DNA from: Pseudomonas sp. LRP2-20
GTDB lineage: Bacteria; Pseudomonadota; Gammaproteobacteria; Pseudomonadales; Pseudomonadaceae
Length of the DNA stretch: 64,000 bases
Assembly: GCF_024349685.1 (NCBI RefSeq)
Contig: NZ_AP025944.1
Span: 2,300,001 to 2,364,000 of the forward strand
Direction of reading: 5' to 3'
Part shown: positions 7,424 to 29,624 of the stretch, one piece after another
How the letters are laid out: each line of letters begins with the position of its first letter
How positions within the stretch are numbered: position 1 is the stretch's first letter
The notes under the pieces: generated by a model
Databases searched by the model: none
Told to the model about the DNA's origin: nothing
Seen by the model: only the letters and a program-made list of their open reading frames with translations
Made by a program: the position numbers and the translations under genes

Positions 7424-7717
7424 TTAGGCGCGATACGTATATCAATGCGGGTGCAGAGTGCACATTTTTTCGCGCACCTTTCCAGCCCTTATCGTTCAAC
7501 ACCGGTGGGCCTTTCATGGCTTCGCTAGGGATGCATTGTGACAGGATTCTGCACATTTTTTTGCAGATACGTTCACACCGCTATAGGGAGCACCCGGCAG
7601 TCAACTATTAGGCCTAGAAGATTCACCATCCCGGTGATCGGACTCGGACGGGCGCAGACCTTGCCAGCTTTTGAAAACCGATCAGGAGTGCACAGCGATC
7701 AGGATTGCTTCGCCAGT
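7424..7717. other. Non-coding stretch with two T-tract repeats
   Basis: No supported gene. The sequence TGCACATTTTTT occurs twice, near 7458 and near 7550, about 92 bp apart in the same direction. Two copies are too few to call transposase binding sites at a transposon end, but the stretch does lie between cargo-like genes and a separate mobile-element relic. Confidence 0.3.
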
Positions 7718-8620
7718 TATGAAATCACCGCTGCCCAGGAGCCGTGCTTTGCCCTTCTCCAGCATGGCCGCTTCACGCGAAAGGGTGGGGCGTTTAGACA
7801 TGGATATCCGTCCTGGGATCAATGGCCACCCGCCGCCCATTTGAAGTGATCTGTATATCCACAATCGGCCTATGCGGGCAGAGTCCAGCGGCGAGCCTAA
7901 GGATCGCCAGCTGGCTATTGCAGGCGAAATGTTGGAGTGAGGTTAGGCTATCCGGGAATTTTCCGTTTAGACGGGCCCGGTCGACAGATTTTTCTTAAGC
8001 GACCTATGAAAATCTTAATTTTCGGCGTTTTTCTCCAATTTTTCTTCATTTTCCTGTCCCAGCATGCGCTGAGGCATCCACCGATGTTTGTGTGAGGCGT
8101 ATGACTCCGCGTTAGGTTTGAACCCTTATGGAGGAGTTGGACTATTGGGTGACCTCGGCTCGGCTAATCCTTGCAGCCGTGCCAGTTGCTGCGCTTGCAC
8201 ATGCAGGAGACGCTGGTCATGGCGGTGGGTGAGAAGGTCAGACCTGGACTTTCTCGCGTAGCAAGGTGATCTCACTCGCCATTATTTGTTCCTGCTGATG
8301 CGCCTGGTTCACGAGCAGCTTTTCGGCCGCCAAGTGCTGCTGCGCGGCGCTCAACTCACGCTCGAGCTGACGGAACTGTTGCTGCTGGTAGCCCTGCATA
8401 CTGTTCGCGCGTTCCAAGTCCCGGTACAACTGCGTCAGCTCTTCTTGGCGCACGGCGAGTTGTTCACGCAGCCCCCACACCTCGGCTTGTAACTGACTGA
8501 ACTGCTGACCATGCCGCTGCAGTTCTTCCTGGCGTTGCACCTGATGCAGTTGGCGAAAGTGCTCCAGCGATTCACGCGCCTGCTGGTGTTTGGCCTCGAG
8601 CGATCGGACCGTCGTCGTCC
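7718..8620 (-). pseudogene. Truncated, frameshifted duplicate of the tnpT region
   Basis: This stretch repeats 15024-15913 in the same orientation. It holds the first 30 or so residues of the antitoxin-like gene (MSKRPTLSREAAMLEKGKA), the intervening non-coding DNA, and the C-terminal coiled coil of a TnpT/KfrA-like protein (RQEELTQLYRDLER is identical in both). One extra A in GAGAAAGTCC (GAGAAGTCC in the full copy) shifts the frame and creates a stop after LLREKVQV. The N-terminal DNA-binding domain is gone: similarity ends near 8620. Confidence 0.8.
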
Positions 8621-15104: not shown

Positions 15105-15913
15105 GGATCTCCGTCCGGTGATCAGTGGCCGCCTACCACCCAATTTTATGATGTGGCTAGTAAGCTCACATCCGGCCGGTGCGGGCGGACCAGGGTCGTG
15201 AGTAGGGACTGCCAGGTCGCTGTGGCAGGCTAGCTTAGTGCTGGAGTGGTATGAGGCTATCCGGGAATTTTCTGTTCAGAAAGACTCGGGCGTCAGCTTT
15301 TTCTTAAGCGGCCCATGAAAATCTTCAGTTTTGGCGTTTTGCTGCATTTTTTCTTAACTTTCCTGCCCGCATGCGCTGAGGCACACCGCGACGCTCGCGT
15401 GTGGAGGGACGACTCCGCGCCAGGCTCAATTCGTCATTGAATTGGGCTGTCGGATGATCCCGGCTCGACCAAGCCTTGCAGGCGTGCCAATTGTTGCGCC
15501 TGCGCCCGTAGGAGGCGCTGGTCATGTCGGTGGGCCAAGAGGTAAGACCTGGACTTCTCGCGTAGCAAGGTGATCTCGCCCGCCATTATTTCTTCCTGCT
15601 GATGCGCTTGTTTCATGTGCAGCTTCTCGGCCGCCAATTGCTGCTGCGCGGCGTTCAACTCACGCTCAAACTGACGGAGCTGTTGCTGCTGGTAACCCTG
15701 CGTGCTGGTCGAACGTTCCAGGTCTCGGTAGAGCTGTGTCAGCTCTTCCTGGCGAACGGCCAGTTGTTCACGCAATCCCCGCACCTCAGCTTGCAACTGA
15801 CTTAACTGCTGATCATGCCGTTGCAGTTCTTCCTGGCGTTGTAACTGATGCTGTTGACGAAAGTGCTCCAGGGATTCACGCGCCTGTTGGTGTTTGGTCT
15901 CGAGCGAGTGGAT
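15024..15913. repeat. Imperfect direct repeat of 7718-8620
   Basis: About 0.9 kb, same orientation, separated by about 7.3 kb. Coding and non-coding parts both match, for example CAGCATGGCCGYTTCACG and GCATGCGCTGAGGCA in both. The copy at 15.0-15.9 kb is the intact one. Confidence 0.8.
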
Positions 15914-16408
15914 CGTCGCCGCACGCTCCTCGAGCAGCTGGAGCTGCTGTCGGCACGCCTCCTCAAGACGCCGTCGCTCACCTTCGGCCAGCTGCAGTTG
16001 GCCCGTGAGCTGCACTTCACGCAGACGCAACTGCCGATGGGCCTCCATCTCTGCGGTGTGTGCCACCTGCAACTGCTCGAACCGCGCGGCCTCCACCGCT
16101 CGCTGCTGCTGGTAGGCCGCTTGTTGCCGCTCCAGGCGGGCCCGGTCGACGGCGACCGTGGCCTGCGCTTCGTTGGCCAAACGCTCAGCTAGACTCAGCA
16201 GCAGCGCCTGTAATTCTTCCGACAGATTCACCTGTGGTGGATGGGGTTCAGCCACGGCTAGCTCACGGAGGAAACGAAGGATGGTGGTCTTTGAACCCGT
16301 GTGACCGAGCTCTGCTCGCACGGCCTCAATGCTGGGTGACAGACCCCGGGCGAGGAGGGCATCCCGTGCACGCTGCACGAGGGCTTTGTTGATACCAGCG
16401 CGGGCCAT
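15434..16408 (-). CDS. tnpT: TnpT, KfrA-like cointegrate resolution protein
   Basis: 324 residues. The N-terminal 80 form a KfrA-type DNA-binding domain (ARDALLARGLSPSIEAVRAE, then GSKTTILRFLREL). The rest, about residues 85-310, is an almost continuous glutamine-rich coiled coil (QQQLRQFERELNAAQQQL). It is divergent from a tyrosine recombinase with 140 bp between, exactly the arrangement of tnpT and tnpS in Tn4651/Tn5041-type Tn3-family transposons, where TnpT assists TnpS at the resolution site. Plasmid KfrA is the alternative reading, but the partner makes TnpT much more likely. No Tn3-type transposase gene is present in this window. Confidence 0.82.
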   Translation of the reverse strand: MARAGINKALVQRARDALLARGLSPSIEAVRAELGHTGSKTTILRFLRELAVAEPHPPQVNLSEELQALLLSLAERLANEAQATVAVDRARLERQQAAYQQQRAVEAARFEQLQVAHTAEMEAHRQLRLREVQLTGQLQLAEGERRRLEEACRQQLQLLEERAATIHSLETKHQQARESLEHFRQQHQLQRQEELQRHDQQLSQLQAEVRGLREQLAVRQEELTQLYRDLERSTSTQGYQQQQLRQFERELNAAQQQLAAEKLHMKQAHQQEEIMAGEITLLREKSRSYLLAHRHDQRLLRAQAQQLARLQGLVEPGSSDSPIQ

Positions 16409-16548
16409 GGGTCTGCTCCCACTTTTTCGTACTGTTCAATCAGTATGGAAGTACACGTGTACAAGCGCCTGATCCGGTACCAATAATCGGACAGACTGAC
16501 GTTTGAGAAGCCAAGTTTCTCGCACGTGATAGCGCGTTTAGCGGTGAT
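16409..16548. other. Candidate resolution site between tnpT and tnpS
   Basis: A 140-bp spacer between the divergent resolution genes, where Tn4651-type elements place their recombination site. It contains the perfect palindrome GTACACGTGTAC at 16451-16462 and a GAGAA/TTCTC inverted pair near 16512-16528. Which of these is the crossover core cannot be told from the sequence alone. Confidence 0.6.
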
Positions 16549-17490
16549 TTGCCGCTTGCGGGGGTACAGACGGAGGCGGTGGTGGACACTTCGCCCGATC
16601 GTTATCTCCAGGCCGCGCGTCGCGCCAGTACCGAGCGGCGCTACGCCCAGGCCATTGCGCACTTCGAGACGGAGTGGGGTGGGTTGCTGCCCGCCTCCAG
16701 TGAAAGTGTGGTGCGCTACCTCACGCATTACGGCGACCAACTGACGAGCCGAACCCTGCGGGTGCACCTGGCCGCCTTGGCGCGCTGGCACCAGCAATTG
16801 GGCTTTGCCGATCCCACCAAATCCTATCGGGTGCGCGATACGCTGAAGGGGATTCAGGCGCTGCATCCGCAGCCGGTGAAGCAGGCCGAGGCCCTAGCGC
16901 TCCACGAGTTGGAGCTCTGCATCAATCAATTGGCTGAAGAGCTTGCGGATCCGCTGCCAGTGGTGAGGCTGCGTGCAGCCCGTGATCAGGCACTGATCCT
17001 GCTAGGGTTCTGGCGGGCATTTCGCAGCGACGAGTTGAGCCGGTTGCGTATCGAGAACATCCAGTGGCGCAAAGCTCAGGGGTTGGAGCTGTTCCTACCA
17101 AATAGCAAAACTGACCGCAGCAACCGCGGCCGGTTGGTCAAAGTTCCGGCACTTAAGCGCTTGTGCCCAGTCGCGGCTTATGAGGTGTGGTTGAATGAGA
17201 GTGAGCTTACCGAGGGCGCGCTGTTTCGCTCCATTGATCGCTGGGGGCATATCGGTGAGCAGGCCCTCAACGCCAACAGCGTATCCCGACTACTGCGTCA
17301 AGTTTTTCTACGTAGCGGCGTCGACCCGGAAGGCTATTCGGGACACTCCCTGCGCCGAGGCTTCGCCACGTGGGCTAGTGCGAATCAATGGAGTCATAAA
17401 GCTTTGATGGATTACGTCGGCTGGCGTGATGTGCAGTCAGCTATACGCTACATAGACAGTGATGGACCGTTTGGTAATTGGGCTTTGTAA
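16549..17490 (+). CDS. tnpS: TnpS tyrosine recombinase (cointegrate resolvase)
   Basis: 313 residues from TTG 16549; a GTG near 16579 is another possible start. The N-terminal SAM-like core-binding domain covers residues 15-110. The catalytic domain has Arg in FWRAFRSDELSRL, the HxxR in GHSLRRGFATW, His in WSHKALMDYVGW and the nucleophile Tyr in AIRYIDSD. All catalytic residues are present. Paired divergently with tnpT, it should resolve transposon cointegrates. A decayed relative of its C-terminal half lies at 35285-35663. Confidence 0.88.
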   Translation: MPLAGVQTEAVVDTSPDRYLQAARRASTERRYAQAIAHFETEWGGLLPASSESVVRYLTHYGDQLTSRTLRVHLAALARWHQQLGFADPTKSYRVRDTLKGIQALHPQPVKQAEALALHELELCINQLAEELADPLPVVRLRAARDQALILLGFWRAFRSDELSRLRIENIQWRKAQGLELFLPNSKTDRSNRGRLVKVPALKRLCPVAAYEVWLNESELTEGALFRSIDRWGHIGEQALNANSVSRLLRQVFLRSGVDPEGYSGHSLRRGFATWASANQWSHKALMDYVGWRDVQSAIRYIDSDGPFGNWAL

Positions 17491-17702: not shown

Positions 17703-17788
17703 TGCTGATCGTGTGCATGCAGCATATGTTAAGGCGGTTAATGCTCCGCGAAAGCTGTACTCCGCGGAGCGAATCAATTATTTTTTAT

Positions 17789-19123
17789 CTAGTCGTTGGT
17801 TCGAGCACAACCTATTGTATTCAGCACCGCTCTACCGAAGAAACACATGTTGTTTAGGTGTAAATATTGGCTGATCCACGGTCGTTTTTTACAGGTGTCC
17901 GAGCTACCCATCCTTAATGTATTTGTACAGCTAGTATAAAATGGACAAATCAGAGCGTCGGGGTGTTTTATTTCTTTTGGGTCCAATTTTAGGAAGCTAA
18001 ACGTATAGAGGAATGACGCTTGTGCCATCCGACGGCCTGCAGATAGCTCTGGATCGAGTTGGTCGGCTAAGGATATGTCGTACATTAAATCCTTTTGCGG
18101 CTTATCACTTTCACCAGCTCTTTCTTGGACCAAGAAGCCAGTTCCGTACTTCTCCAGAGAATGGAATAATGCTGCTGCGCCTTCAGATGCAAATGTGTCA
18201 ACTAAAGATATTTCGAAAAAAGGATCGCTTAGTCGGTGGTCGAGATTCTCACGCATTTTTTTTGTGGCGTACTTCACGGCCCTTGCAACCGGTTCATCGG
18301 CAGGGAATAAGCTGTCAATAAAGTCAATATTTCTGGCAATTGCATCTGCATTGAGCTTAAGATGTTCTAAAGCTGCTTTGATAATTAATTGATCGGGGTC
18401 AATGCCTTGTTCACTGGCTATTTGCGCACGTTCAAGCAGTTTCGGCAACCATTCCGGTGGGTCGAGGTGTTGAAGTGAAAGGATACCGCATTTCAACACT
18501 GTCTCAGCAGCCAAGTCGGGCGCGATAAAAGATGCTAGTTTACTGACTAAGTGATAGGGATAAACATTTGCAGAGGCAAGCTCTTTGTTTTTAATAAGGT
18601 ATCGTTCTTCGAGTAAAAAGGCTACGGACTCGACAATCTCATGGCAACCGATAAGGGTTTCGATGTGTTCCTTGCCGTCAATGACTGTGTCGCACACTAT
18701 TTCAGTGCACTTGTAATTTATATCATCGTCAATTGACCAGCTCCGTAGTGAGTATGATAAGAGTTTTACGCTGCTGCTTGGTGTGTTGTGCGGTATTCTG
18801 TTGGCCTTAGGAGAGCGAGCGTTGAGCCTGTAATTAAGCTGTCTGTGGATGTTGTTAAAGTGCTGAGGGTCGGGTGCTGTAGGACTGTCATAAACATAAG
18901 TGCGGACATTCGACCAAAGCAATACGGTGTGAGAATACGCGACTATGCCGTGATATGTGGATATATTGTGCAGGAAGTGTAGCCATTCATGAATGAAGAA
19001 GCCTGATTCTTGGGGGGTTTCAAAGCCCCGTAGGTTTTCAGGATCGGCAAATGGTTGGAAGGCAGATTTAAATTTAATTACTTGGTAGTCTGGGAGGTAG
19101 GTGGCTGCCGCTTCACTAATCAT
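17789..19123 (-). CDS. HExxH zinc-metallopeptidase-like protein, island gene
   Basis: 444 residues, AT-rich. Near the N-terminus FFIHEWLHFLHN gives HExxH at residues 45-49, and about 112 residues later GCHEIVESVAFLLEE supplies the glutamate-bearing helix expected of a gluzincin. There is no signal peptide, so it should act in the cytoplasm. The C-terminal part has several cysteines (CPFYTSCTN, SSDTCKK), perhaps a second metal site. The family is not known to me. It is the most downstream large gene of a four-gene leftward cluster whose other members look like nuclease-type defence proteins, so a protease effector is a reasonable inference. Confidence 0.65.
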   Translation of the reverse strand: MISEAAATYLPDYQVIKFKSAFQPFADPENLRGFETPQESGFFIHEWLHFLHNISTYHGIVAYSHTVLLWSNVRTYVYDSPTAPDPQHFNNIHRQLNYRLNARSPKANRIPHNTPSSSVKLLSYSLRSWSIDDDINYKCTEIVCDTVIDGKEHIETLIGCHEIVESVAFLLEERYLIKNKELASANVYPYHLVSKLASFIAPDLAAETVLKCGILSLQHLDPPEWLPKLLERAQIASEQGIDPDQLIIKAALEHLKLNADAIARNIDFIDSLFPADEPVARAVKYATKKMRENLDHRLSDPFFEISLVDTFASEGAAALFHSLEKYGTGFLVQERAGESDKPQKDLMYDISLADQLDPELSAGRRMAQASFLYTFSFLKLDPKEIKHPDALICPFYTSCTNTLRMGSSDTCKKRPWISQYLHLNNMCFFGRAVLNTIGCARTND

Positions 19124-19197
19124 GGTTGAAATCCAGTGGTTGTCGGTTTTTTGTCATCACGCCCGATGCGTTATGGCGCTTGGGGAGACTATTTAAA

Positions 19198-19815
19198 TCA
19201 CGCAGAAGGAAAAAGCCCCATTGGTATGTGGGATATGCCAGCGGAGCTACATTTCTTTAATATTTGCTCCGCTTCTTCATGGATTTTGTTTAAATCTACC
19301 TTATTGCCCATGTTGTAGAATTTCTTTTCTGATACCACGTATAGCTTTATTGGGAGGAGTTTTGGTTCGTAAATGTCCCAGTCGGAAATGGTTAAATTGT
19401 ATGCAATTGGGGGCGGGTCGAAAGGATCGTTAGAAAGTCTGAGATTAAGTCGATCTAGATGCTCGTCGAAGTGCTCTACTGAATTGCGTACTGTTCTATT
19501 CTGGATTTCTGTTATGTCAATGGATTCTAAAAAAGCATTGATTGTTTCTGCTCTATTTGTGCGCAGTGCGAATAAAGGTGCGGTTTCACTTTTGCTTTTT
19601 TTCTTGGGAAGGGAGATTAGTCTTGAAATTCCTGCTGCATCATTCAGCAGTGAGGTTATTATGCTATGTGTTTCTGGGTCATTTTGTATGAAAGCGCCCG
19701 GGAAAAGTGGCTGGGTGTTATCGAAGACTAACTTGCATTTTTTGTCAATTTGGTAAGCTAGGTAATGTAGTTCGTGGTAGTAATATTTATTTAGTTTTGT
19801 GGTTTCGAATTTCAT
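19198..19815 (-). CDS. HEPN-motif protein (putative RNase), island gene
   Basis: 205 residues, AT-rich, mostly helical by composition. The motif VRNSVEHFDEHLDR gives R110-N-x3-H115, the Rx4H signature (RN form) of HEPN ribonucleases found in abortive-infection and toxin systems. No other domain is recognised. It lies 74 bp upstream of the metallopeptidase-like gene and 124 bp downstream of the PD-(D/E)XK-like gene, all leftward. The motif is short, so the HEPN call rests on motif, helical content and context together. Confidence 0.55.
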   Translation of the reverse strand: MKFETTKLNKYYYHELHYLAYQIDKKCKLVFDNTQPLFPGAFIQNDPETHSIITSLLNDAAGISRLISLPKKKSKSETAPLFALRTNRAETINAFLESIDITEIQNRTVRNSVEHFDEHLDRLNLRLSNDPFDPPPIAYNLTISDWDIYEPKLLPIKLYVVSEKKFYNMGNKVDLNKIHEEAEQILKKCSSAGISHIPMGLFPSA

Positions 19816-19939
19816 TGTGCGTCCGTTCGGGGCTTTTCAATGATTATTATTTATCATAGGCTTGTATATTGGTGTGCAATTTTTGAATAGTCTGCTCAAA
19901 TCTGGCGACCCGTATTAATGGGTCGCCAGGCTTAACTGG

Positions 19940-21046
19940 TTATGCGGAGGATCTGAGGTCATTGAAATCCTCTTCCAAATGGACTGAAAATTCACGCGGG
20001 ATCTTCAGTGACTCTACTAGGTAGCGTGACATGTTCATGCTGAATTGCCTGATTCTTTTGTTGGACTGAATGGCCTGAGAGATGTACTCGTCTTTATGTG
20101 CTTCCTTTGTGGATATTTTCATTAGAGCAAGCTCCCTGAGTGGAAGTATGCACTTTTGTATGTCCGTGGGGGAATTCAAGAGTTTTCGAGTTAACTCCAT
20201 GAAGCCTGACCAGTCTTTGAGCTCGGGATCTTGTGGGGCTGCGCCTTCACGCTGCGCGGTAAAGAGTTCAGTAAGCCTGCTGCGCAGCGTGTAACTGTCT
20301 CTGCCTCCCCAAATATAGAACTTTAGAATGCTCTCGAATTGCTTTTCTTCTGCATCAAACTCAACTATGTTGCGGAGGTCGTGTATCACTTGCGCCATTA
20401 GGAAGGCGAATATTGAAAGCGAGTATAAGAAAAGGCTTTTGTGTTTGTCCTTTGCCGGATCAAGCTCACCTTTTATTTTTGAAAGTGCGGATAAAAATTT
20501 GCGTAAAGCTTTAACTGCATCTTTTTCGATTGGTGCTTCACTGTGAAGAAAAGCTGAAAATTTAGCAAGAGCTGGTTCATTAAGGGTGATATCATAAAGT
20601 TTAGTCCAGTTTTCAATGGAGGTTGAGTAGCAATAGTCGATGCTGAAGTCAAGCGAGCAAGAATTTGCATAATTTTGAAACTGAGTTTCGTCAAATAAAT
20701 GCACTTTGATTTGTTTTGCGGACAGGCGATGTGCTTCAGATGCTTTTTTTCTCAAGATGATAAATGCTTCATCGCAACCACTAAATGTCATCAAGCCCCC
20801 GGCCCAAAACGCTCGATTGATTGGGCTGGTTTTACCTAAAGTTTTGCAATCAAATAGTACTCGTCGTGGCCGACCAGTAGAATCAATCTTGACCCCTAAG
20901 ACGTCCATGTCGGTAATAATCGTGCTGGTCGTTGAAAGCTCTCTGAAATTTTGAATGTCGACTTCAGGGAAAGGAATCATGTCGTTGACCAAGCAGAAGC
21001 GAATCGCCATTTCTTTTTGATGTATATCTTTATCTAGATTGGCCAT
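19940..21046 (-). CDS. PD-(D/E)XK restriction-endonuclease-like protein, island gene
   Basis: 368 residues from ATG 21046, which lies one base after the stop of the upstream gene; a TTG 15 bases earlier is less likely. Near residue 45, TDMDVLGVKID is followed by RRVLFDCKTLGKTSP, the D-x(17)-D-x-K pattern of a restriction-endonuclease fold. SPINRAFWAGGLMTF continues the core. The remaining 250 residues are helical and unknown. Tight coupling to the winged-helix-like gene upstream suggests that they work together. Confidence 0.65.
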   Translation of the reverse strand: MANLDKDIHQKEMAIRFCLVNDMIPFPEVDIQNFRELSTTSTIITDMDVLGVKIDSTGRPRRVLFDCKTLGKTSPINRAFWAGGLMTFSGCDEAFIILRKKASEAHRLSAKQIKVHLFDETQFQNYANSCSLDFSIDYCYSTSIENWTKLYDITLNEPALAKFSAFLHSEAPIEKDAVKALRKFLSALSKIKGELDPAKDKHKSLFLYSLSIFAFLMAQVIHDLRNIVEFDAEEKQFESILKFYIWGGRDSYTLRSRLTELFTAQREGAAPQDPELKDWSGFMELTRKLLNSPTDIQKCILPLRELALMKISTKEAHKDEYISQAIQSNKRIRQFSMNMSRYLVESLKIPREFSVHLEEDFNDLRSSA

Positions 21047-21047
21047 G

Positions 21048-22325
21048 TCATTCGTACGCAAGGATTAGTTGTTCGAATTGTTCCGCAGACTCACCATGAA
21101 GTGTAACTTGACTTCGCCCTTTTAGCTCGGCAGCAGAAATGATTGACTGGATATATTTCTCATCCTTAGATAAAGCAATTCTGGCTTCTTGCTTTACATC
21201 TAAGTTTGCCAATTCTCCAGTTCGTAGGAGATTGATGGCTAAATCCAGGGCGGCTTTGTTTTCTGGTTCGGGATTTAAGTGAAATTGATACCTGTCGCCA
21301 GCGATATGCTTCAGGTGCCCGACACGGAGGAAAACTAAGTTTCTATATTGGCTGGCCGCCTCAGAGTTCGAACCAATATAACCTTGGTCACGAAGTACTT
21401 CAAGGATCCTGATTGGCATTTTGATTCTGAACTGCTCTGCTAGGAGTTGACCTTTTCGGACGCAAGCGACTAAGGCCATTGCACGTTCATAGATTTCTCT
21501 GTTCGAAGAGTCAAGCCGGCTTTTGCCTGGCTTAGGGGTGAAGACAAAAGTCTCCTTGGAGTTCTTGAACTCAATGGAGGGAGGCTTCAGTATTCCCTCT
21601 GAGCATAAATGGATCAATAGTTGCATCTGCTGATTGGTGAGCTTTTTGCCGCCAAGTTCGGCACGCTTTTGGATTAATGAAAGTGGCCAGCCCTGATTGC
21701 TTTTTATGACGTCAAGGACTATGGATATGTCATCTGCACCAACCTTCGCCGTAAGGTCGGCTAGCTCACCTAAATTGTCCGAGAAGTAAAATGGGCTCGC
21801 GATTATGTTGCGTCCTCGCGCTCGGAATTCTTTAAAATAATTTCCTGTTTCGCCGATGTTGACGCAGCGCTCCATTAATTTGTGATCAATGCCAATGTTA
21901 GATACTAAGCGGTCACGATTTTCAGGTTTCTGTTGAAGCTCCGACAGGATTAGTAGCGTCCCTTGTTCATGCTCATTGAGCTCGGAGAAACTGAAATAAT
22001 CGCCCACTCGCTCATAGATATCTTTGAAGTGGGGTATGTCAGGTATTATCGATAATATTTTACCGTCTTTTTTCACTATGCCTACATATTCTATTTCTCC
22101 CAGTATCTCGATTACTTCTCTTAAGGCATATGACGGTATTGAAAAGAAATGATCGCTAACTTTTCTGAGGACTTCGAATTCGATTTCCTGAAGGCCTCTC
22201 AGGTGTATTGCCAAGGTCGCGGCCATGCCCATTGTTCGGAGGCGGTCAAAATCAGGCACATCTATACGACCCAGCCCTGCTTGCACGTCGTATGAGAGTT
22301 CAATAAGTTTTCGGCCTTTTAACAT
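21048..22325 (-). CDS. Winged-helix-like protein of unknown function, first gene of the leftward cluster
   Basis: 425 residues, AT-rich. Segments such as LREVIEILGEIEYVGIVKKDG, DDISIVLDVIKSNQGWP and MPIRILEVLRDQGYIGSN read like successive winged-helix units, and there is no enzyme motif. It is the promoter-proximal gene of the four-gene cluster, and its stop is one base from the next start. It may be the sensor or DNA-binding component; that is inference from position and fold only. Confidence 0.55.
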   Translation of the reverse strand: MLKGRKLIELSYDVQAGLGRIDVPDFDRLRTMGMAATLAIHLRGLQEIEFEVLRKVSDHFFSIPSYALREVIEILGEIEYVGIVKKDGKILSIIPDIPHFKDIYERVGDYFSFSELNEHEQGTLLILSELQQKPENRDRLVSNIGIDHKLMERCVNIGETGNYFKEFRARGRNIIASPFYFSDNLGELADLTAKVGADDISIVLDVIKSNQGWPLSLIQKRAELGGKKLTNQQMQLLIHLCSEGILKPPSIEFKNSKETFVFTPKPGKSRLDSSNREIYERAMALVACVRKGQLLAEQFRIKMPIRILEVLRDQGYIGSNSEAASQYRNLVFLRVGHLKHIAGDRYQFHLNPEPENKAALDLAINLLRTGELANLDVKQEARIALSKDEKYIQSIISAAELKGRSQVTLHGESAEQFEQLILAYE

Positions 22326-23300
22326 AGTTTGCTCTTTTGTCTTTGTCTGGATGGTTGTTTGGCTTTATTGTTGATTGTGTGCTTTGTAAACGGATTTCGA
22401 ACATGATCGTATGGTGCAAAGTTAATTTTTATATTTGATGCTCAGTAGGGAGTGCCCCGGCTTCTGTTCAGTACTGATGTGTCCATGGATTTTCCGGTGC
22501 GCGGCATGCCCGAGTTATCTAGGTAAACTATTTTATCTTCAGTGCGCGCCGCGGATAGGCCAATTTGGGCCAGTGGAAAAAACTTCGGTTGTTGGGACTT
22601 TTGGGGGTATTGCTGAGCGTCTGCAATATGCCTCGCGCAGCTATTTGATTCTGGTTGTCGTATGCGGGTAAATGGCCCGCGAAGACTCTTGATGGCTGGA
22701 GTGTCGATTGAAGTCTTCTAGGAGGAGCATGATGTTGCGTACCCAGTGCACGTTTTCCCCACAGATCCCCCTCGAATCTGATCTCTTGGGTACAAAACCG
22801 CGGAAGCGCGGCCTGGACCCATGGTGGGGCCTCCGAACACAGCAGAGTTTCTCCATCAATATCCATACCTTAGCTCTCTATCCCTGATAGCGATGAATGC
22901 AGGATGCTATCATACCGCCATCACTAGGCAGATCGTCCATCTGTCTGATGCCAGTTTCCCGTAAAATCACGCCGAGGCAGCTCAGTGCTGCTCAGTGATC
23001 ATTATGCTCGGTGCCCTGAAGTGCTTTGCTATGTGGCCGTCGGCAAATCGACCGCCAGGGCTGTCCCAGCCAGTTCATAGGTCTGATCTGACTACTCTTA
23101 GGCATTCCTGCTATGCACGGAGCCACAGTAGCCTGGTTGGGGTTGCATCCAGGCTGTGCGAACCATCGTAAGGGTGACCCGTGGTGGCCAAAAAGGGTAC
23201 TATCGCCGGTCATCTTATTAGCGGACGACCTGCCTGGCCTGGCCATTGTCTTGGGGCAATCGGGCACCGCAGTTGCCACATTTTAAAGCGAGAAATACCA
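22326..23300. other. Long divergent intergenic region of the island
   Basis: About 970 bp between the leftward cluster and the methyltransferase gene. It is AT-rich near 22330-22540 and GC-richer after. A TGATAGC/GCTATCA inverted pair with a 14-base loop lies near 22886-22913. Several short frames on both strands have no ribosome site or family resemblance and were not called. Both arms of the island must be transcribed from here. Confidence 0.5.
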
Positions 23301-25385
23301 GTGGGTGATGTAAGCACTCCAAATCCTGCGTTGGCGTCGCCCGCGCCAGCTAAGCAACGTTTGACCATCCCTGCGTTAACCCTTGCGGAAGCTGACGAAA
23401 TTCCGGTTGAGACACTGATCCGTTTTGCTTTGCGAGACGGTCGGCGCCCACGTCCGATCTATACTGCCCATAAGTGGTTTGCTCGTCGCCTTCCGTCAGT
23501 ATTCCGAAGCTTGCTAATCGGGGTGACCACCGTGCCCGGGGCTGATTTCGAGTCGCTTTATTACGGTGATGCCGACTTAAACGGGCTCACCGTCCTGGAT
23601 CCGTTCGTAGGCGGCGGTACTTCGGTATTTGAAGCCTTTCGCTTAGGCGCTAACGTCCACGGCTGCGACGTTGATCCAGTGGCTTGTGCGGTCAGCCAGC
23701 TCGAACTCGATGCCGCCACAATGCCGGATTTGCAACCGGCTTTGGAGCAGCTCAAAGAGCGGGTTGGACAAAAGGTGCTCCAATTCCACCGCTCAGGTGA
23801 CGATCTCGTACTGCATCATTTCTGGGTGCAGCATGTCAGTTGTCAGCAGTGTTCGGCTGACTTCGATGCTCACCCCAGCTACATCCTCGCCGACGACGGA
23901 AAGGTGCGTCATGCTGTGTGCGCATACTGTAATGAGGTCGCAACACTTGCCTCCGGCACGCGAGCGTTTGATTGTGCCGCCTGCGGTCAGCACACGGTCT
24001 GTGACGAAGGTCCAGGGAAGGGGGGGCGAGCTGCATGCCCTAGCTGCGGACATGCGGAGCCGTTGATAGACCGCGGCCGCCGCAGCGGTGTCCCCGCATG
24101 GCGGCTTTTTGCCGTCGAGACGATTCCCCGCACCGATGACCGTCGGGTAGTGCCAATAGCCAATCGCGTATTCAGACGCGCCACTGACGATGACCGCCAG
24201 CAGTTCGCGGAGGCTTCAGTGTTGTTGCATCGCGGACTGGCCGAGGGCAGTCTCACGTTACCGACAGACCCGATAGAGGCTGACGGGTGGTCGGACGAAC
24301 GCCTGACCGCGTACGGGTATCGTTATTGGTCAGAGCTGTTCAATGATCGGCAACTTTTGCACTTGGCGTGGCTAATGAAGGAAATAGCCACATTGCCGGA
24401 GCCGGTTCGATCATTCATATCCATGGCATTCAGCGACCATCTTACGACCAATTGCATGATGGCTTCCTATGCTTATGGGTGGCGTCGTCTGACGCCGCTA
24501 TTTTCGCTCCGCGCGTTTCGCCATATTCAGCGGCCGGTGGAGTTGAACCCATGGATCGAGCGGACGGGGCGAGGGAGCTTCCCAAACACGGTACGCAAGC
24601 TAGGGCAGGCCGCTGCCTATGCGCGGTCTCCCAAGGAGCCAAGGGCGGCTGCAGAATTCGTTCCTGTCGCGCGTCGAATATCTAAGCGCCCAGGACGCAT
24701 CCACCTCGGCAGCGCACGTACGCTGAGCTTTCTAAAGAGTGGCTCTGTCGACGTGGTCATGACAGACCCGCCTTACTTCGACAATATTGCGTATTCCGAG
24801 CTTGCTCAGTTCTTCACGCCATGGTTGAAAGCTCTAGGGGTGATCGGCAGCTTGCCCCGTGATCATGTCATGAGCGAGAGTTTGGTCGCACGCAAGCACC
24901 AGCCGCAGAGTGTTCAGCACTTTATCTCTGGGCTGGGAGAGGCGTTTGTGGAGGTTGAACGAGTACTGCGGCCTAAAGGAGTGGTAGCATTTAGCTATCG
25001 GCATACTGAAGCCCCTGCATGGTTGGCGTTAGCGGAGGCCATTGCCGCTACCGGCTTACATGTTACTCGTGTTCTGCCGATGCCTGGTGAAGTAGGTATG
25101 GGCTTGCATGGACAAGGAGAGCGTGGCCTGTGGGATGCCATCTTTATCCTGCGACGTGGCCGGCGTCTTGTGGGTCAGGCGCGAGAACTCTTCGTCTCCC
25201 CGGCCGATATCCTGGCCGCAGATGAGGCGGTCGCTGAATGGCGCGAGCGATATGGTTGCCTGTCGATAGCCTTCAATGCGATCGACGCGATTGCTCTGAG
25301 GAGGGCCTTCCTTGTGGGGCAAGCCTTGGCCAAGAATAAAATAATCGGGCTTGATCACGTACCGCTCAAGGAGGCGCTGCGTTAA
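23301..25385 (+). CDS. Adenine-type DNA methyltransferase with inserted zinc ribbons
   Basis: About 694 residues from GTG 23301; a longer frame from 23181 adds 40 residues unlike protein. It begins with RRPRPIYTAHKWFARRLPS, then the SAM-binding motif I LDPFVGGGTSVFEA (near residue 100). A long insert carries four CxxC pairs (CQQCSADF, CAYCNEVA, CAACGQHT, CPSCGHAE), two zinc ribbons. The catalytic TDPPYFDNIAYS is near residue 488 and GVVAFSYRH follows. The order FxGxG then DPPY fits a beta-class-like amino-methylating enzyme of the kind found in defence islands. The next gene starts 24 bp later, so the pair forms an operon. Confidence 0.85.
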   Translation: MGDVSTPNPALASPAPAKQRLTIPALTLAEADEIPVETLIRFALRDGRRPRPIYTAHKWFARRLPSVFRSLLIGVTTVPGADFESLYYGDADLNGLTVLDPFVGGGTSVFEAFRLGANVHGCDVDPVACAVSQLELDAATMPDLQPALEQLKERVGQKVLQFHRSGDDLVLHHFWVQHVSCQQCSADFDAHPSYILADDGKVRHAVCAYCNEVATLASGTRAFDCAACGQHTVCDEGPGKGGRAACPSCGHAEPLIDRGRRSGVPAWRLFAVETIPRTDDRRVVPIANRVFRRATDDDRQQFAEASVLLHRGLAEGSLTLPTDPIEADGWSDERLTAYGYRYWSELFNDRQLLHLAWLMKEIATLPEPVRSFISMAFSDHLTTNCMMASYAYGWRRLTPLFSLRAFRHIQRPVELNPWIERTGRGSFPNTVRKLGQAAAYARSPKEPRAAAEFVPVARRISKRPGRIHLGSARTLSFLKSGSVDVVMTDPPYFDNIAYSELAQFFTPWLKALGVIGSLPRDHVMSESLVARKHQPQSVQHFISGLGEAFVEVERVLRPKGVVAFSYRHTEAPAWLALAEAIAATGLHVTRVLPMPGEVGMGLHGQGERGLWDAIFILRRGRRLVGQARELFVSPADILAADEAVAEWRERYGCLSIAFNAIDAIALRRAFLVGQALAKNKIIGLDHVPLKEALR

Positions 25386-25409
25386 ACAGCCAAATTGAAG
25401 TGGAAGGGA

Positions 25410-28400
25410 ATGCCAGTGCCTTATCTGAGTAAGCGGGTTATCAGTAACTATTTTCGAACCGATTGTCCGCGCCAGCTGGCGTTGATGCTCTACCCCCACA
25501 ACAAGCAGTACGAGCCTGCGCGCAGCGCACTTGAAATGCCGCCCAAAGCAGTGGGGCGTACAGGTATGAATGCACTGACTGAAGAAGGAGGGCGCTGGGA
25601 GCAGGCCAAACTTCATGATCTGGAGGTTACCTTCGGAGCCGAAGCGGTGCTTGGAATGAAAACCAAGCTCGACTACCAAGACCAAAAGCTGTCGGCGGTC
25701 ATCCCTCGCGCATTGCCCGGCATGTTCCTCGTCAGGCCTGAGTACCAAGTTGGTGAGACGTTCATGCGAGCGTTGACCATTGACGAGATGAGCACCGCTT
25801 ACAAGCTCGCATTCGCCAACCTCATTCCCGATCTGATCCAGGTGATTGCACCGGAGGACATTGAGCGGATCGTTCACGCTGACGGCACTGTGCACCCTGC
25901 CGATGGACGAGTAGGGCTTCGGGTCATCGACATCAAAATGACGGCTGAGCCCAGCGCATCGTATTTTGCCGAGATTACCTACTACTCACTTGCGCTCGCC
26001 GGTTGGCTGCAAGATCAGGGTTTTGCCGAGCGATTCGCTGTGGTTGCTGAAGCAGCGATCTGGCCCGGCTCGCACGATGCAGCTGAGATCGTCAAGCTAC
26101 AAGCGGCTAGGCGCGAGGAGGGGCGGCAAGCCTCGGATGCGGAGTTGCGAGCAGCTCTGAAGCTGGACATTGAAACGCTTGAAATCGAAGTATTCGCACC
26201 ACGGCTGCGTTATTTTTTCAACGTTGAACTGCGTGCCGCCCTTGAGAAACCTTGGCGCGACCAGGACTATCACGTCAGTACCGCTTGCAGTGGTTGTGAA
26301 TATTTGGGCTATAGCTGGAGCCCAGATGTTGTGCCTCATGCTGAGCATTGCATGCCGCGCGCCGCAAAGGATGGCCACCTTAGTTCGATTGCTTTCTTGC
26401 CTCGGGGGGCACGACGGGCTTTGGGGGATCGCGCGGTGATCCAGGCAGAAACCCTGGCGGGTCTATCTGCAGATGATGAGGCGTTTGATTGCCACCCACG
26501 GTTACGAGCAGCGCGCACGGTCGTGGCGGGCAGAGCACAGGCTCTCTCTACCAAGGTCAGCAGTATCCCTTCAGGCTCGGGTACCTCTGCAGTGCTGCCC
26601 AATTGGTCGGACCTCAGCCTCTTCCTCTCCGCAGACTTTGATGTCGGAAGTGGTTTGACGCTAGCGTTCGGCATAGCCGGTTTCTCGAGGATTAATGGCG
26701 AGACCGAACGCGTCGATGCGCAGGTGTTTGTGAATGACACTCGCAGTATTGAGAGCGAACGCCGAGAGCTGCTGAATTTCCTGACTTACCTAAGTAAAGC
26801 GTTGAGCGCAACGCTGAAGGCAGAGCCCAAGGCCACTGTACAAATCTACCTCTGGGACTCAGTGACATATGAGCACTTGATCCGGGTAATTGGCCGCCAC
26901 CTTCAATACATCATGGCCGATAGCAATCTTAAAAAGCTGGCCTGGCTGTTCCCTGCCGACGAGTTGATCGAAAACGCAAGCTACCGCTCCGCAGATGCGC
27001 CCATCACCATCGTGCGAAACGCGGTGCAAGCGTTGGTCGCGGCCCCGATTCCCCATTACTACTCATTATTGGCTCTAGCGCGCGAGTTCCGGCCGCCGGT
27101 TAAGCCTGACCGTACGCCCTTTGATTTCCGAGTGCCGACTATTTTTGAGGATCCGTTGTCCGACCAGGTGCCTTCAGAGCGGGCTCATGAAATCTGGACC
27201 CGGATGGGGGCACCGCGTCCGTGGAGCCAGCAGGTCTCCCAGCTCAGATCGACAGTGACCACGAAGTTGCGCGCGACGGCCTCGATTGTCTATCGCTTAC
27301 GCTTGGAGCTGAAAGGGGAGCTGCGTAGCACATCGCCGAAGATCGCCAACATCAAGGCTCCGTCTATGTTAGACAAGGTCAGCGCTGATGGGCAGGTCTG
27401 GTTTGCCTACGCCAAGCTGAATGCCAAAGTGGCGGCACTTGAACAAGCTATCACCATGGCCACTCCGGTACATGAGCGAGAGGCGCGCTATCTGGCTGCC
27501 CGACTTGAGCGCGAGCTGATGGGGGCTGAGGCCAATCTAGCAGCTGTGTCGCTGGGGATCGCTCGAGAACCTGGTGTAAGATTTTACCAGCTTGGTCAAC
27601 ATTCTCTGGAAGCGAAGTTCGAACCGGGGGACTTCCTTTGTGCGCTGTCACCGGCATCCATGGCTGATTTTCATATGCAGCAGGTGAGGGATGTAATCGG
27701 CAGTCAAGCGTTGCCGTCTGAGATCAAGCTAAGTCCCTACGTTTACGCAACATCGTTAACCAAGGTCACGGTTTTGGCGATTGATCGGGAGAAGCGTTGC
27801 ATTGCAGTGTACCTGGATCCGGCCATTGACGACTTCCTGCGTTTGATCGAGGGTGACCTGGACCTGAGTCGAGACGTTGTATTGGACAAGTTGGTGACCG
27901 ACTTCATGACCAAGCGTTTGGAAAAGGCCTTGAAGGCAATTGGCAATCCCCCGCTCGCCGTAAAGGCGGGTGTTTCGACGTCGCAGGTATTGGGCAAGCC
28001 CGCCGTCAAGAAAGTCAGCGCTTCGGTTCCGGTCGAAGAAGTGCTGTGGAATACCGCAGCACTTGCACATACTCCGACGCAGCGAAGCGTAAGCAGAATT
28101 CGACCTCGCCTGGAAGGCTACGGTATCAGTTTGAATGACAGCCAGTGGGATGCATTGCGTCAGGCAGTGGAGCAGCGCCTAGCGTTAATCTGGGGGCCTC
28201 CGGGTACAGGAAAATCCGAGACGCTGCGGGCCATTCTGCTCGGCCTGCTGGTGGACTCACATCAAAATGAGAGTCCGATACGCATTCTAGTCACTAGCAA
28301 CACCTACGACGCGACTGACAACGTTGTGGTGAAGGGTTTCCAAAATATCTTGGCGTTGGGAGCAAAAGAGACTGGGCCAGTGCAGTTGGTGCGCTTGCGT

Positions 28401-29624
28401 TCTGGTTCCAAGGCATCATCAAAGGATCTGGCAGCGGAGATTAACCTGCTGAATGATCCAATGGATCCCAAGGTTCGCGAGCTTCACGCGACGCTGCGGG
28501 CGAAGCTCTGCAGCGTCATCGTGTCGGCACCGCCGCAGCAAGTTACTAAGTTTGCTGTTCTAAACGGTAATGCGGCAGAACCTTTGTTCGATGTTGTGCT
28601 GATTGACGAAGCGTCGCAAATGGACATGGCGAATGCCGTCCTGGCCCTGGCTCCCATTGCAGCCAATGGCGCCACAATTGTGGTGGGTGACCCTAAGCAA
28701 CTGCCCCCTATCCAGCAAGTCGAGCCGCCCGTTGGTCTTGAGAAACTGGTAGGTTCGGTTTATGACTTTGTAGCGGATCATCGCGGTGTTAAGCCGGTTA
28801 GTTTGCTGGAAAACTACCGTTCCAATGCTGATATTGTGGGGTTCAGCCGCTTTGCGGGGTACCCGGTAGAATTGACTGCATTCTTCCCTGATTTGCGGAT
28901 CGCCACAGACGTGCCGCTGCCGAAGGTCCGCCCTCTGGATTGGCCGCAGAGTTTAGAGTTTGCCGAGGAATTGTCGATCCTGTTGGATCCGGCGCAACCT
29001 ATTTCCGCGTTTATTTATCCTGAGGGTAGAAGCAGTCAATGGAATGACTTCGAGGCACAAACGGTCGCGTCATTGCTTGTGTTGCTGCGGCGCCACCTCA
29101 TGAAAAATTTAACCAACCTACCAGGTGCTGTAGGAAACGATCTGCATGACGCTGAAAGCTTTTGGAAGAGCGGAGTCGGCGTGGTCACTCCGCACCGGGC
29201 GCACAAGGCACTGGTGGTCTCTCGTTTGCAGGCACTGTTCGGACCAATGGGTGACGATGCTCAGTTGATTCGTGATGCCGTCAACACCGTCGAACGTTTC
29301 CAAGGTCAGCAGCGGGATGTCATCATTGCCAGCTATGCATTGGGAGACCCCGATGCCATTGCCGATGAAGACGAATTTCTGCTGTCGCTCAATCGCTTTA
29401 ACGTCATGTCGTCCCGGCCCCGAGCGAAACTGATTGTGCTGGCTAGTCAGGAGGTCATCAACCATCTGCCGGGTGATATCAAGATCATGCGCGACTCTCG
29501 CTTGCTCAAGTATTTTGCCGAAACATTCCTCGATAGCCGTACGGAGATATCGATCCCGTTTAAAGCAGAAGGGAATATCAGCCGACGCCAAGGCTCGTAC
29601 CGCTGTAAGCAGCTTCAGACGTAA
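25410..29624 (+). CDS. Cas4/Dna2-like nuclease fused to SF1 helicase
   Basis: About 1,404 residues from ATG 25410, which has AAGGGA upstream; a TTG 15 bases earlier is possible. The N-terminal nuclease domain has Asp in LIPDLIQV (near 139) and LRVIDIKMTAE (near 175), a first cysteine in TDCPRQLAL (near 19), and a cysteine cluster CSGCEYLG plus HAEHC (near 291-314), the Cas4/AddB-type 4Fe-4S arrangement. The C-terminal UPF1/Dna2-type SF1 helicase has GPPGTGKSET (near 932), VLIDEASQMD, VVGDPKQLPPI, LLENYRSNADI, VVTPHRAHK and VERFQGQQRDV. A 600-residue middle is unassigned. Paired with the methyltransferase, it looks like the effector of a restriction-type system. Confidence 0.88.
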   Translation: MPVPYLSKRVISNYFRTDCPRQLALMLYPHNKQYEPARSALEMPPKAVGRTGMNALTEEGGRWEQAKLHDLEVTFGAEAVLGMKTKLDYQDQKLSAVIPRALPGMFLVRPEYQVGETFMRALTIDEMSTAYKLAFANLIPDLIQVIAPEDIERIVHADGTVHPADGRVGLRVIDIKMTAEPSASYFAEITYYSLALAGWLQDQGFAERFAVVAEAAIWPGSHDAAEIVKLQAARREEGRQASDAELRAALKLDIETLEIEVFAPRLRYFFNVELRAALEKPWRDQDYHVSTACSGCEYLGYSWSPDVVPHAEHCMPRAAKDGHLSSIAFLPRGARRALGDRAVIQAETLAGLSADDEAFDCHPRLRAARTVVAGRAQALSTKVSSIPSGSGTSAVLPNWSDLSLFLSADFDVGSGLTLAFGIAGFSRINGETERVDAQVFVNDTRSIESERRELLNFLTYLSKALSATLKAEPKATVQIYLWDSVTYEHLIRVIGRHLQYIMADSNLKKLAWLFPADELIENASYRSADAPITIVRNAVQALVAAPIPHYYSLLALAREFRPPVKPDRTPFDFRVPTIFEDPLSDQVPSERAHEIWTRMGAPRPWSQQVSQLRSTVTTKLRATASIVYRLRLELKGELRSTSPKIANIKAPSMLDKVSADGQVWFAYAKLNAKVAALEQAITMATPVHEREARYLAARLERELMGAEANLAAVSLGIAREPGVRFYQLGQHSLEAKFEPGDFLCALSPASMADFHMQQVRDVIGSQALPSEIKLSPYVYATSLTKVTVLAIDREKRCIAVYLDPAIDDFLRLIEGDLDLSRDVVLDKLVTDFMTKRLEKALKAIGNPPLAVKAGVSTSQVLGKPAVKKVSASVPVEEVLWNTAALAHTPTQRSVSRIRPRLEGYGISLNDSQWDALRQAVEQRLALIWGPPGTGKSETLRAILLGLLVDSHQNESPIRILVTSNTYDATDNVVVKGFQNILALGAKETGPVQLVRLRSGSKASSKDLAAEINLLNDPMDPKVRELHATLRAKLCSVIVSAPPQQVTKFAVLNGNAAEPLFDVVLIDEASQMDMANAVLALAPIAANGATIVVGDPKQLPPIQQVEPPVGLEKLVGSVYDFVADHRGVKPVSLLENYRSNADIVGFSRFAGYPVELTAFFPDLRIATDVPLPKVRPLDWPQSLEFAEELSILLDPAQPISAFIYPEGRSSQWNDFEAQTVASLLVLLRRHLMKNLTNLPGAVGNDLHDAESFWKSGVGVVTPHRAHKALVVSRLQALFGPMGDDAQLIRDAVNTVERFQGQQRDVIIASYALGDPDAIADEDEFLLSLNRFNVMSSRPRAKLIVLASQEVINHLPGDIKIMRDSRLLKYFAETFLDSRTEISIPFKAEGNISRRQGSYRCKQLQT

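Follow-up and report, generated by a model that had tools for sequence, protein, structure and literature searches.

Two adjacent gene pairs in a low-GC cluster of Pseudomonas sp. LRP2-20: a co-inherited pair with a candidate PD-(D/E)XK nuclease, and a rare HExxH protein beside it

Introduction

The described systems that come closest to the locus considered here are the restriction-type nucleases of the PD-(D/E)XK superfamily, the HEPN proteins, the PADLOC candidate PDC-M64C, and phrog_15354, a family without assigned function. In the DefensePredictor study, PD-(D/E)XK nuclease domains are present in 13 of 31 additional validated E. coli systems (PMC13092281). One of the four genes described below, W2, likewise encodes a PD-(D/E)XK-type candidate. 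An earlier note on this DNA had read the four genes as a single antiphage system that could not be matched to a named one. Our analysis indicates that the locus most likely consists of two adjacent gene pairs, namely W1-W2 and a separate, rare W3-W4.

Locus organization and motifs

Four leftward open reading frames (ORFs), W1 to W4, occupy 17789..22325 of the window, by which we mean the whole stretch of 64,000 nucleotides that was analysed, within a genome that consists of a single contig of 6.03 Mb (Table 1). The sequence contains the ORFs and the named motifs, with the spacing that had been described. Coordinates and base composition agree with the AT-rich leftward cluster first described, with GC at 0.448 in W1, 0.427 in W2, 0.395 in W3, and 0.447 in W4 versus 0.528 for the window, and with the ATG of W2, at 21046, lying one base past the W1 stop. 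The genes had also been called closely spaced, which is strictly true for W1-W2 only because the 1-base gap there compares with 124 bases between W2 and W3 and 74 bases between W3 and W4.

Table 1. Genes and predicted hairpins of the cluster (window coordinates)
Feature	Position	Strand	Description
W1	21048..22325	-	425 aa; opens the two-gene module; may bind DNA
W2	19940..21046	-	368 aa; PD-(D/E)XK-type nuclease candidate (E28, D46, D48, D66, C67, K68)
W3	19198..19815	-	205 aa; HEPN-like RN-x3-H-FDE motif (R110, H115)
W4	17789..19123	-	444 aa; HExxH metallopeptidase candidate; four invariant cysteines near C terminus
Hairpin after W2	19896..19935	-	-23.4 kcal/mol, z -4.45; perfect 10-bp core stem extended by 5 outer pairs; T run absent
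Hairpin after W4	17743..17770	-	-19.2 kcal/mol, z -3.67; no T run after stem

The motif residues that the earlier note had named in three of the proteins are in place: D48-x17-D66-C-K68 in W2, R110-N-x3-H115 in W3, and H45-E46-x2-H49 in W4. Taken alone, each motif is weak evidence; among 5000 composition shuffles, the motif was contained in 568 for W2, 481 for W3 (with the looser pattern R[NHD]x3-5H), and 169 for W4. The motifs of W2 and W4 go beyond chance because they are conserved in 45/45 (one with R for K) and 20/20 aligned rows, respectively. In profile searches of Pfam, PADLOC, and NCBIfam, none of W1-W4 gave a match with E < 0.001, which agrees with the initial failure to assign the cluster to a named system. 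Against PADLOC 2023 and NCBIfam 2026, the only matches were PDC-M64C, with W2, and unrelated sub-threshold ones.

The alignment of W2 has D46, D48, D66, and C67 in all 45 rows, K68 in 44 (R in the remaining one), and E28 in 43 (D in two), as well as R78, W81, G84, and H202 in all 45. We take the residues D46-x-D48...D66-C-K68 to be the PD-(D/E)XK pattern, and the nuclease-type D-x17-D-x-K spacing noticed at first inspection is a family-wide feature. The reading of W2 as a PD-(D/E)XK nuclease candidate is well supported by sequence because this D...(D/E)-x-K catalytic pattern is kept throughout the 45 rows. While W2 resembles the superfamily in keeping E28, D46-x-D48, the x17 spacing, and D66-C-K68, it differs in having no sequence match to a known or solved member and in always being coupled to W1; sequence searches of Pfam, PADLOC, NCBIfam, and solved structures found no relative. 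The weak PDC-M64C match (residues 104-160, E about 0.0045) is likely due to chance; it was obtained for 1 of 45 W2 relatives, and the matched stretch misses the catalytic motif.

For W1, the best profile match was to MarR (MarR/NmtR, E 0.022), and the best matches against single members were to TrmB (E 0.01) and IclR (E 0.019), all of them sub-threshold, such that a winged helix in W1 is a hint at most. No relative among solved structures was significant. We also considered an arrangement of W1 as tandem winged helices and rejected it, as profile comparison of four segments gave a probability of at most 3.1% and no internal repeats. W1 relatives form at least 569 clusters in a large protein set, a lower bound obtained with 8000 candidates scored. 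Among the best 120 of these clusters, no Pfam domain was listed for any, and those with a name are called 'hypothetical' or 'uncharacterized' protein. Both W1 and W2 are nameless in four family libraries.

Inheritance and spread of the W1-W2 pair

We collected 50 W1 loci outside the window, comprising 40 genome-contig loci, 3 viral-contig loci, and 7 plasmid loci. These include near-duplicates (L019/L021, L024/L025, L049/L050, and L006/L042); tblastn of W1 against plasmids matched 10 records, and the loci of three (H10, H13, and H16) were left out of the 50. W2 lies directly after W1 in 48 of the 50 loci, on plasmids, viral contigs, and genomes of 11 phyla, the two exceptions being a contig that ends in W1 (L057) and a W1 without W2 (L009). 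The co-occurrence in other genomes that had been proposed as a check is therefore found for the first two genes.

Moreover, the distances of W1 and W2 correlate across 44 loci including the window (Mantel r 0.918), with 0 of 2000 permutations as high. This test was run without L001, L009, L021, L025, L027, L050, L057, L061, and L063, and short matches and duplicates were left out of the underlying alignments A5 and A6. The nearest genome relative (L023) shares 85% amino-acid identity with the window in W1 and 80% in W2, with dN of 0.105 and 0.119, respectively, and saturated dS; both genes are therefore kept by selection. W1-W2 is a real, co-inherited two-gene operon.

The W1 tree spans ten phyla, to which the plasmid records add Actinomycetota as an eleventh, and groups the window's W1 with Pseudomonas putida, a cyanobacterium, and Methylophaga in a 100/100 set. 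W1 is present in 6 of 348 Pseudomonas genomes and in 2 of 398 genomes drawn over the phylum (one of them the window's own), and the pair was found by DNA match in 6 of 5426 E. coli genomes. No W1 match was obtained in 50,697 phage records. The pair was not found in the literature searched, the supplementary tables of PMC13092281, which could contain it, having fallen outside that search. Overall, W1-W2 is widespread, mobile between very different bacteria, and unnamed in the four libraries, and it may defend its hosts.

Boundary between the two gene pairs

The four-gene unit proposed at the outset was not recovered outside this strain. Relatives of W3 or W4 occur in none of the 50 W1 loci, where at least 5 kb is present upstream in 41 and downstream in 35, and none of the 18 loci that carry a W4 relative has W1, W2, or W3; together, these counts largely refute the four genes as one antiphage unit. 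In addition, W1 and W4, each present in 6 of 348 Pseudomonas genomes, are shared by only two of them, the window's own and G190, in which W4 is broken and lies about 100 kb from W1. The hairpin 3' of W2 possibly marks the boundary between the two modules. A second hairpin follows W4, and the W3-W4 gap contains none. A simple terminator scan, in which a T run is required, lists neither hairpin, and its number of sites was not above that of shuffles.

Genomic setting

The ORFs neighbouring W1-W2 are rich in defence genes. A scan that covered 42 of 44 loci (without L015, L021, L025, L034, L037, L050, L057, and the window) and 108 of the 163 ORFs chosen matched 169 PADLOC models at E <= 1e-15, many of them redundant, and the 25 matches listed include type I restriction and methylation, IetA, LmuB, AriA, AbiLi, HEC-01A, and PD-Lambda-1. 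The same scan of 108 control ORFs at fixed positions in Pseudomonas genomes, drawn from 18 of 20 regions, matched 2 models, a contrast that is indicative only because this control came from other taxa with a different mobile-element content. Any mobile-island gene would show defence-rich neighbours of this kind. Of the antiphage reading in the earlier note, a defence-rich setting is supported for the relatives of W1-W2, and the joining of all four genes into one system is not.

Integrases and transposases are also common neighbours, and no third gene family lies beside W1-W2 in more than 5 of 51 loci. As regards restriction-modification, this includes methyltransferases, none of which recurs as a neighbour beyond that number, and neither W1 nor W2 gave a methyltransferase match in Pfam, PADLOC, or NCBIfam. 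In three E. coli records, nadC and ppdD flank an island of about 9.5 kb that contains the pair along with two genes for recombinases and one annotated as type III restriction R subunit, and both W1 and W2 are annotated as 'hypothetical protein'.

Several individual loci have features of their own. In one E. coli locus (L090, 14439-24478), a short prepilin-type ORF lies on one side of the island and ppdD on the other, and the far end carries a large recombinase gene, as if the island had been inserted at ppdD. On a Mycolicibacterium plasmid (L007, 10731-17176), genes annotated as ThiF-family adenylyltransferase, multiubiquitin protein, ImmA/IrrE metallopeptidase, and S8 peptidase stand beside W1-W2. 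A single Jeotgalibacillus contig carries two copies of the pair with equal match scores, about 83 kb apart (L049 and L050).

In the window itself, the plus strand at 23181-29624 encodes a 734-aa DNA methylase, the best NCBIfam match of which is DUF1156_antiphage (91 bits versus a cut-off of 1000), and, after it, a 1409-aa SF1-type helicase that is DpdJ-like in part; these genes possibly form a second defence pair. On the other side, genes for a KfrA_N protein and a tyrosine recombinase adjoin W4 (15434-17490, with 7707-8550 also noted), and about 7.3 kb upstream, parts of the module's KfrA_N end occur again with 82-87% identity. The two genes have no Tn3 partner here, since no Tn3-type transposase (PF01526) was found in the window's genome.

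The W3 and W4 proteins

We found three relatives of W3 (P0002, L022, and a Kocuria relative), all of which have RN-x3-H-FDE: one is another protein cluster (64%), one is on a Kocuria plasmid (24%), and one is a 36% stretch at the end of a viral contig. Among 348 Pseudomonas genomes, W3 was present in the window's own only. The HEPN motif first seen in W3 is therefore shared, and the conserved R-x4-6-H pattern of HEPN proteins is found in W3 and its relatives, a set of only four sequences. Unlike known HEPN proteins, W3 matches no HEPN family, and P0002 and L022 are likewise without a match in Pfam, HEPN families included. W3 appears to be a near-orphan HEPN-motif protein and is a possible RNase.

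In W4, the residues H45, E46, H49, E165, E172, C393, C399, C411, and C427 are invariant in 20/20 rows. This bears out the HExxH...E arrangement described before, in which an HExxH motif is followed by a conserved downstream Glu as in gluzincins (either E165 or E172 being a candidate ligand), and adds to it the four cysteines. W4 has no Pfam or solved-structure match; its residues 6-438 match phrog_15354 (E 4e-65), and this match says nothing on W1-W3. Its relatives comprise 15 other proteins in the large set, 7 plasmid records, and 6 viral loci from one scan, with viral scans using single W4 relatives adding one new locus (L078); phage records gave no match. W4 was found in 6 of the 348 Pseudomonas genomes, two of these with stops or fragments, and in 1 of 369 genomes of the class, the window's own. 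W4 can be described as a rare, mobile HExxH family with four invariant cysteines, putatively a metallopeptidase.

The neighbours of W4 vary, and many W4 relatives have no clear partner. On three Cupriavidus plasmids, the gene of a 235-aa protein with RNFIAH overlaps the W4 relative by 4 bases, and one of the copies matches HEPN_Swt1 weakly (E 0.0099). On two viral contigs that share one gene (L014, 3868-6318, and L015), a DUF4062 gene ends 12 bases upstream of the W4 relative. The occurrence of HEPN-motif genes beside W4 in two settings is suggestive, with the Cupriavidus copies being close relatives of one another. We observed further that on one Cupriavidus plasmid (L010, 8297-13151) genes for nucleoside 2-deoxyribosyltransferase and 7-cyano-7-deazaguanine synthase come after the HEPN-motif gene and the W4 relative, and that in a Pseudomonas genome (G232; L070, 7707-8132) a 141-aa ORF without a Pfam match, nuclease-like by eye, overlaps the end of the W4 relative.

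Discussion

We favour, with a probability of roughly 55%, a locus of two neighbouring modules, in which W1-W2 is a mobile nuclease-based defence-type cassette and W3-W4 an unrelated neighbour. In such a cassette, W1 would bind DNA or an invader's signal and hold or aim W2, which would cut DNA in the presence of a phage or another mobile element. Because the pair has neither a methyltransferase nor a recognised ATPase, the nuclease is presumably gated, either by W1 or by a DNA feature that is missing from the resting host. The adjacent module would combine a near-orphan HEPN-motif protein with a rare phage- and plasmid-borne HExxH protein that has a four-cysteine region. W4 might process or gate a neighbouring effector, such partners being seen in few loci and many W4 relatives having none.

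A more far-reaching interpretation, which we offer tentatively and regard as rather doubtful, is that W1-W2, widespread (seen in 11 phyla) and without a name, constitutes a defence system of two components. Its large protein, a sensor or DNA-binding protein, would gate the PD-(D/E)XK nuclease with no ATPase or methyltransferase involved. In the same interpretation, W4 would represent a separate mobile class, with an HExxH metallopeptidase and four-cysteine region working with exchangeable effectors such as HEPN proteins.

The coupling of two genes on plasmids and islands, with the putative DNA-binding protein coming first, would also suit a toxin-antitoxin or addiction module that keeps mobile elements stable, with W1 as DNA-binding antitoxin and autoregulator and W2 as toxic nuclease. 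We consider this unlikely. Usual antitoxins are smaller than the 425 aa of W1, and antitoxins usually vary more than their toxins, whereas in the same four loci W1 is more conserved than W2 (51, 48, 43, and 40% versus 36, 33, 37, and 26%).

Marginally less probable still is that W1-W2 works not in defence but for its mobile elements, through DNA processing, repair, or replication, for instance. An overlap of W1 with a MobF relaxase gene, seen in Roseomonas and one relative, and the integrases and transposases beside the pair fit such a role, but the pair keeps to no constant element type or partner and many of its neighbours are defence genes. That all four genes form one antiphage operon, as their shared strand, similar low GC, and contiguity had suggested, is largely refuted and now very improbable given their separate distribution in the W1 loci, the W4 loci, and the Pseudomonas genomes, as well as the strong hairpin between W2 and W3.

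W1-W2 is a compact pair, unnamed in the four libraries, with a range that takes in Pseudomonas, E. coli, cyanobacteria, Bacillota, and Actinomycetota, and it offers an easy target for tests with phages or of plasmid entry. Separating W1-W2 from W3-W4 avoids the cloning of a wrong four-gene construct and shows which two genes should be tested jointly.
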